Source: Brachyhypopomus gauderio
Taxonomy: Eukaryota > Chordata > Actinopteri > Gymnotiformes > Hypopomidae
DNA: 64,000 nucleotides
Assembly (NCBI RefSeq): GCF_052324685.1
Contig: NC_135228.1
Span: forward strand, 16,157,611-16,221,610
Reading direction: 5' to 3'
Part shown: positions 35,369 to 38,300 of the stretch, one piece after another
How positions within the stretch are numbered: position 1 is the stretch's first letter
How the letters are laid out: the number at the start of each line of letters is the position of its first letter
Notes under the pieces: model-generated
The model's input: the letters and a program-made list of their open reading frames with translations, nothing else
The model's database searches: none
Told to the model about the DNA's origin: nothing
Translations under genes and position numbers: made by a program

Positions 35369-38300
35369 ATGAGTGCTTTAAGCCCTGTACCAGAAGACAG
35401 GATCATCTGTGAGCTCCCACTGGTAACCATCCCTCTATTTTCATTATTTTAACTAGTACCTAATCCTAGACTACATAGGGGGTTATGCCATCGCTAGGAA
35501 AATCAAACATACCGACAGTCTCTCAAACTTATGTAAGAAAATTATTACTGTTTAAATCAAGATACAGCTTACTATCTGATAACTGGTGACAATTATGCCA
35601 ACATTTTATTTTGCTTCATTCTTGTTTGTAATAGACCAATAATACAATCATAAACATTTGGTCTGTTGTTAAAGTACTTCACAAAGGAAGCTGCGGTGCA
35701 TACCAAAAATGGCTTCCATGTGACTGTCCAACATGCATGTCTGGGTCAGAGGTCACACACAGTGGGGTAAGCCCTGGAGATATACAAGTATGCACAACGA
35801 AGACATTAGAATGAATAAGTGTTGACATGTTTGTTATTATGTCTACAGATTCAATGTAGCCAAGGTGATAGTTGTGGGTGATGTTGCAGTTGGGAAAACA
35901 TGTTTGATCAATAGGTGCGTAATGAAAAAATGTTTTGAATGTTTTTGCATGTTTGCATATGACTAGAAATATAAAGGAGAATGATAAAATGACCACAATT
36001 TATAGTATATGTTTAAAATGGTGTTGAATATTCTGTGAAAGTAAAGCTTATGAGAAACATCTGGAATTACTTTTTGCTTTAAGGTTTTGTAAAGATTCTT
36101 TTAGCAAGCGGTACAAGGCCACTATTGGAGTGGACTTTGAGATGGAAAGGTTTGAAGTTCTGGGAGTGCCTTTCAGTTTGCAGTTGTGAGTCATTACTGT
36201 TTCCAAAGAATAAATACAAAACAGAAATACATATTAAAACTACACTAAATATTAATCAAAAAATGAATACATTAATATAGAAAATAAAATATATAATTTA
36301 CAGATATTGGTACAGTATATTAATAGCTTCCACTATAGTTCTGCCATCTAATTGAATGTATAGTTTGAATAAATGTTTGGTTAAAATATAGGTGGGACAC
36401 AGCAGGTCAGGAGAGATTTAAATGCATTGCTTCCACCTACTACAGAGGAGCTCAAGGTAATGAGATTTACAGTTGTGATCAAATTTATTCAACCCCCACT
36501 GAAATAAAGTGTTTTGGCCAGTTTGACATTGATTTTGATCATTTCAGTCATCTTATTTACAATTATATCAAAGAGGCACTTATAAATTAGACAAACATAA
36601 CATAATATTTATGATGGAATAACCACAAATGTCTTTACTGTGCTCACATCATTATCAGTTTTATTCAACCCCCTAGTGACATTATTTTTTAGTACTTAGT
36701 ACAACATCCTTTTCCAGTTATGACAGCTTTCAAGCGTGAAGCATAGCTTGACACAAGTGTCTTGCAGCGACCTATGGGTATCTTAGCCCATTCTTCATGG
36801 GCAAAAGCCTCCAGTTCAGTCACATTCTTAGGCTTGCGCACTGCAACTGTCTTCTTTAGGTCCCACCAGAGGTTCTCAATTGGATTTAAGTCTGGTGATT
36901 GCGATGGCCACTCTAGAATGTTCCAGCCTTTCATGTTCAACCCTGCTCTAGTGGACTTGGATGTGTGCTTCGGATCATTGTCCTGTTGGAAGGTCCAACG
37001 TCTCCCAAGCCGCAGGTTTGTGACTGACTCCATCACATTTTCCTCCAAGATCTCCTGGTACTGAAGGGAATTCATGGTACCCTGCACACGTTGAAGCTTT
37101 CCTGTACCATTAGAAGCAAAACAGCCCCAAAGCATAATTGACCCCCCGCCATGCTTCACAGTAGGCAAGGTGTTCTTTTGTTCATAAGCCTGGTTCTTCC
37201 TTCTCCAAACATAGCGCTGGTCCATTGTCCCAAACAGTTCTAATTTAGTTTCATCTGACCACAGTACACTGTTCCAAAACCTTTGTGGCTTGTCCACATG
37301 ACTTTTGGCATACTGCAGTCGACTTTTCTTGTTCTTTGGAGTCAGCAAGGGGGTGCGTCTGGGCGTTCTGGCATGGAGGTCTTCGTTATGCAGTGCGCGC
37401 CTTATTGTCTGAGCTGAAACTTCAGTGCCCACATCTGACAGGTCTTTTTTCAGTTCCTTAGCAGTCACGCGGGGATTTTTCTTCACATTACGCTTCAGGT
37501 AGCGCACAGCAGTCGCGGTCAGGATCTTCTTTCTGCCACGACCAGGTAACGTTTCCACTGTGCCCTTTAACTTGAACTTGCGAATGATACTTCCGATAGT
37601 GTCTCTTGGAATATTTAACAACTTCGCAATCTTTTTATATCCATTGCCATTCTTGTGAAGAGCAATAACCTCTTCTCTTGTCTTCTGGGACCATTCTCTT
37701 GCCTTCACCATGCTTGGAAACACACCAGTAGATGTCTAGAAGGAGCTGAGTATCACAGTCCTTTTAAATCTGCCTAATTGGTGCTTATCATGCTTGATTG
37801 CTGCTCGTTGACATCCACAGATGTTTTCAATACCTGATGGAAAACACTGGAATGAACCTCTGTTCTTAGGAGTGGTAGTCATAAAGGGGTTGAATAATTG
37901 TGTCAATGAAGAAATCACAAAAAGGCCATTTAATACTTTATGACAAAAAAAATTGATGCTATCTTATTTGCATTTAGTTCTTTAACAAGTCCTTGTAAGA
38001 TTTCATTATGAACACAATTACAAATGTGCACTGAATTCCATAAAACCCTTCGCAGCATTGGGGGTTGAATAAATTTGATCACAACTGTATATGGTATATG
38101 GTTAAAATAATAATGTATGATTTTTTTTGTAGTTAACATATGTTTTCTCCATTCCAGCCATCATAGTGGTGTTTGATCTAAGCAACTATTATTCTTTAGA
38201 CAATGCCAGGTAGAACATACAGATATCACGCATTCATCCTGCTTACTGTGTTAAAGCCACTATTATGTTACAAATGACGCATTGTATGACTTCTGTTAAC

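Follow-up and report, generated by a model that had tools for sequence, protein, structure and literature searches.

The closest described relatives of the element reported here are Tc1-type transposons of fishes. ZB (Tc1-8B_DR) from zebrafish is 1597 bp long, has terminal repeats of 201 bp and encodes a protein of 341 amino acids; its description counts 20 full-length copies that are more than 99% alike, and records that ZB has already been made into a genetic tool (PMC7913693). ZB-like elements are present in 271 ray-finned species; 155 genomes contain intact copies, and 19 contain 100 or more of these. The elements are flanked by a TA duplication and their intact forms measure 1391-2063 bp. 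The Sleeping Beauty (SB) and ZB groups share 58-61% identity in the catalytic part and 34-38% in the DNA-binding part, the corresponding values for SB and SB-like elements being 68% and 55%, and a preference for AT repeats has been reported for both ZB and SB (PMC9777934). Besides, the Group 1 Tc1 elements common to teleosts and lampreys are described as abundant, highly alike and spread by horizontal transfer (PMC3516227).

This work deals with a Tc1-type element found in a window (the whole stretch of DNA analysed) of 64,000 nucleotides from the gymnotiform fish Brachyhypopomus gauderio. The coordinates of its features are collected in Table 1. The best joint explanation, to which a probability of about nine in ten is assigned, is that a Tc1 family has gone through a burst and that the window copy is one of its members, with a weakened enzyme and with ends that can be used in trans. 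The same estimate covers jointly the class of the element, i.e. a DNA transposon that moves by cut-and-paste, belongs to the DD34E/Tc1 group of the Tc1/mariner superfamily and has IR/DR ends of the Sleeping Beauty type.

Table 1. Features of the Tc1-type element, its transposase and the host intron (positions in the window unless residues are stated).
Feature	Position	Strand	Remarks
Host intron, Rab34-like gene	36457..38157	+	1701 nt; 81 nt minus the element and one TA
Left TA target-site duplication	36468..36469		two related empty sites of other copies hold a single TA
Tc1-type element	36470-38087		1618 bp, between the TA duplications
Left outer terminal repeat	36470..36498		29 nt, same as the right end
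Left inner direct repeat	36654..36673		20 nt, 90% like the outer unit, 176 nt inside
Transposase frame with stop	36689..37711	-	340 aa from the ATG at 37711
A288T base	36850..36850	-	absent from the 84 other distinct copies examined
W257G base	36943..36943	-	absent from the 84 other distinct copies examined
E77K base	37483..37483	-	absent from the 84 other distinct copies examined
Right inner direct repeat	37886..37902		17 nt, 88% like the outer unit, 175 nt inside
Right outer terminal repeat	38059..38087		29 nt
Right TA target-site duplication	38088..38089		
HTH_SB	transposase residues 1-53		Pfam, score above cut-off
HTH_Tnp_Tc3_2	transposase residues 70-140		Pfam, score above cut-off
DDE_3	transposase residues 149-300		Pfam, score above cut-off

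The boundaries proposed in the initial annotation are right to the base, and the structure that it described (a TA on both sides, perfect 29-bp outer repeats, inner direct repeats at both ends) was found in full. The full terminal repeats, of about 205 nt each, are identical in only 139 of the 216 aligned columns when left is compared with right; this rules out a single long perfect terminal repeat, and the likeness is thus concentrated in the repeat units. The ends of Sleeping Beauty are likewise of the IR/DR kind, with the likeness concentrated in the repeat units. The TA duplication and the terminal inverted repeats are those of the DD34E/Tc1 group of Tc1/mariner, and an outer and an inner repeat unit at both ends are the mark of the IR/DR arrangement.

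The transposase frame is open, as had been proposed, but its length of 344 codons must be corrected to the value given in Table 1, the four extra codons coming from an upstream GTG. The complete DD34E triad that had been claimed is present as D153, D244 and E279, with 34 residues separating D244 and E279. Paired helix-turn-helix domains followed by the DDE_3 catalytic domain again correspond to DD34E/Tc1.

With its 1618 bp and 340 amino acids, the element differs slightly in size from ZB as described (1597 bp, 341 amino acids; PMC7913693). In the PDB, Sleeping Beauty (5cr4) was matched at E 1.2e-83 by the window protein and at E 1.8e-85 by the protein of another copy, L010. The L010 protein is identical to Sleeping Beauty at 128 of 225 positions of the catalytic part (57%) and at 44 of 109 positions over two DNA-binding pieces. 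This 57% is just under the SB-to-ZB range of 58-61% and well under the 68% between SB and SB-like elements, according to PMC9777934, and would place the family nearer to the former relation than to the latter. By structure the element appears to be of the SB/ZB type, the comparison resting on sequence for Sleeping Beauty and on description for ZB. The family seems to fit closely the ZB/ZB-like kind, its clade placement being likewise by description, and it is ordinary in kind, since this kind is well described (PMC9777934). Sleeping Beauty resembles the element in protein length, domains and IR/DR ends. However, whereas Sleeping Beauty was reconstructed, as stated in PMC9777934, the family studied here consists of natural open copies. 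With the Group 1 Tc1 elements it shares, by description, the condition of an abundant and near-uniform Tc1 family (PMC3516227).

Relatives of the transposase were also sought in viral contigs (six pattern stretches, none confirmed), in prokaryote genome contigs (28 stretches, none confirmed) and in phages (no match); none were expected in any of these. Four stretches of the element or its protein, together with its first 14 bases, were absent from the literature searched, repeat libraries and supplements apart, which is not proof that the element is undescribed.

Other Tc1 pieces are found in the same window. The remnant of a different Tc1-type transposase, in two pieces and about 37% identical to that of the element, lies at 51955-52609 on the minus strand, between 31-nt arms at 51785-51815 and 52708-52738 that are 77% complementary. 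Weaker transposase-like pieces with internal stops are located at 60740-60967 (E 5.65e-5) and 24466-24714 (E 0.014).

The element lies within a gene whose exons, on the plus strand, encode a Rab GTPase. With E values no higher than 0.001, the joined exon peptide matched 241 different PDB sequences, the best 60 of which are Rab-type GTPases. The upstream exon ends at 36456 and the next one starts at 38158; 11 bases separate the exon end from the TA, and both splice sites are untouched. Related to this, the initial annotation had located the element antisense in an intron of rab34: the antisense intronic position and the Rab GTPase coding exons were verified, while the name Rab34 is a putative assignment based on motifs. 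Rab34 is a ciliary GTPase. The insertion would have lengthened a short intron of this Rab34-like gene, probably with little effect on it, given that neither splice site is disturbed. A search of the assembly for an empty allele of this site returned only the filled one. Relatives of the Rab exon occur at C10:19742622-19742691 (84%) and C13:1168487-1168552 (79%), and are probably paralogous Rab genes.

The size of the family was estimated by searching the whole assembly (796.5 Mb) for the 30-base element end, with the reversed end as control. Without mismatches it was found 1184 times in forward and 1179 times in reverse orientation, i.e. 2363 exact occurrences against none of the control, which excludes chance for the element. 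Up to three mismatches raised the counts to 1249 and 1250 (2499 in total; control 0), so that 94.6% of the ends (2363/2499) are exact within this limit, beyond which strongly diverged ends would escape a pattern search. These numbers of exact and near-exact ends amount to about 1,200 copies.

Two sets of copies were compared. The first contains the 40 best-scoring of 1047 first-look candidates and was therefore picked for likeness: 22 of the 40 show no difference across 1622 bases, and the frame is open in every one of the 40. Three of the 22 (L009, L046 and L047) share their flanks on contig C22, where a stretch that includes the element has recently been duplicated. A fairer sample was taken from the first 100 end places listed, all of them on contig C1, which gave 48 pairs and four single ends; this sample covers one contig and copies with two exact ends. 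At three of the single ends the match to the element breaks off before the opposite end is reached; the fourth belongs to a full-length copy with a changed end. Exactly full length was found in 22 of the 48 copies, the others measuring 1605-1626 bases plus one of 2640, TA pairs included. Compared with the majority sequence they carry 0-11 substitutions, with a mean of 4.4 (0.27%); four copies have none, but two of these have a deletion, which leaves 2/48 identical throughout.

With a rate of 4.13e-9 borrowed from zebrafish (PMC7913693), the rough ages obtained are about 0.66 Myr from the 0.27% divergence and about 0.31 Myr from singletons alone, and the five changes of the window copy correspond to about 0.75 Myr (Poisson range 0.24 to 1.75). 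The genome-wide count and divergence proposed as a check in the initial annotation thus gave about 1,200 copies and a mean of 0.27% in the C1 sample. That the family is extremely young and has expanded very recently to this number is strongly supported, and the window copy would belong to that recent burst.

The copies have spread by insertion at TA. Two of them sit in repeats whose empty relatives (179/180 and 169/171 bases alike) hold one TA, which demonstrates clean insertion. The target consensus, from 38 sites, is AT-rich and palindromic around the TA, in line with the AT-repeat preference of ZB and SB reported in PMC9777934. Homology suggests that the transposase recognises both repeat units, outer and inner, brings the ends together, cuts the element out and integrates it at a TA. 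Near-identity could also be the product of segmental or assembly duplication instead of transposition, as exemplified by the three C22 copies, whose 300-bp flanks are 99.7-100% alike on both sides. However, no other pair among the 40 has a common flank of at least 100 bp at E 1e-5, so 38 of the 40 are independent by flanks, and the two empty sites point to clean TA insertion. The unlike flanks of the 37 other copies led to the rejection of segmental duplication as the main cause, and duplication of either kind is scarcely credible as the source of the family's uniformity.

After insertion the copies seem to drift freely, because the singletons within the frame, the three of the window copy included, comprise 50 nonsynonymous or stop changes and 21 synonymous ones, a ratio of 2.4 that is near the neutral value of 2.6. 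The alternative of an old resident family whose uniformity is maintained by selection or gene conversion has nothing in its favour and is opposed by this ratio, by the spread of singletons over the element (71 in 1020 coding bases, 33 in 598 other bases) and by the scarcity of ends with 1-3 mismatches; it is considered very unlikely, and a recent burst remains the preferred reading. On contig C1 the frame is open in 27 of the 48 copies, carries an indel in 18 and a stop in three; judged from this contig, roughly half of the family's copies still have an open transposase frame. A frame-breaking complex deletion with copied filler near 37252 is common to 6/48 copies, which differ further from one another. 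This broken lineage has multiplied and would therefore have borrowed transposase, i.e. received help in trans.

For such a young family, short deletions (7 to 16 bp) appear to be common: the 48 copies (L048-L095) have 10 distinct ones against 99 singleton substitutions. They may stem from faulty repair of the gap left by excision. In one copy (L056), a nested insertion of 1026 bp with long C runs is placed near element coordinate 37413, and its ends look like mutual inverted copies.

The window copy had been singled out as a special intact element, a view that does not hold: more than half of the C1 copies are open as well, and its five base differences from the majority sequence, three of them missense (majority to window, E77K, W257G and A288T), are average for that sample, in which 24/48 copies have at least five substitutions. 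It has more changes than any other of the 40 best-scoring copies, the next one having two substitutions. The comparison comprised 85 distinct copies (the 40 best-scoring and the 48 from C1, three being in both sets), and one of the two differences that are not missense is also present in L018. The tryptophan lost through W257G, within the catalytic domain, is retained by each of the 84 other copies and by Sleeping Beauty (5cr4), and the diverged Tc1 remnant of the window has Y there, these being the proteins compared; E77K lies within the second DNA-binding domain. The profile scores drop slightly with respect to the majority protein, from 54.7 to 50.7 for DDE_3 and from 89.4 to 86.9 for HTH_Tnp_Tc3_2. 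According to the initial annotation, its reading would be contradicted if the consensus departed from this copy at residues for catalysis or DNA binding. This is partly the case: the triad is unchanged, but W257G and E77K fall in the catalytic and the second DNA-binding domain.

Since W257G hits a tryptophan conserved with Sleeping Beauty and is absent from the other copies examined, the enzyme of the window copy is probably weakened or dead. It is conceivable, on the other hand, that this copy is itself autonomous and still jumping, the three amino-acid changes being harmless: it has an open frame of 340 amino acids, an intact triad and perfect ends, and 23 of the 27 open C1 copies also differ from the majority protein. 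The exact majority protein is encoded by only 4/48 C1 copies, missense changes being common in the family, so that a difference from it does not by itself indicate a dead enzyme. Nevertheless, autonomy appears unlikely given the replacement of a residue that Sleeping Beauty and the 84 other copies examined have retained, the slightly lower scores and the absence of the three missense changes from those 84, so that this copy has no known progeny. A window copy with a weakened enzyme is still a likely substrate for transposase from other copies, because its ends are perfect. The suggestion that the element was recently or still active thus stands in its first part, for the family; continued activity is doubtful for the enzyme of the window copy.

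How the family reached this lineage can be addressed tentatively. Horizontal arrival is plausible because old copies are missing and because of the literature on related elements (PMC9777934; PMC3516227). The family may, at close to even odds, have entered the lineage by horizontal transfer within about the last million years and be still spreading, with several hundred open full-length copies (a number extrapolated from 27/48 on C1) and a frame-broken lineage multiplying at their expense. If true, an early-stage transposon invasion would have been caught before decay. The gain is a further case of a known kind and not a new principle; the family is strikingly young and numerous. A Tc1 family that occurs naturally in a vertebrate and retains many almost identical copies with open frames makes an early invasion readable in terms of its source lineages, the loss of frames and the passengers mobilised in trans.
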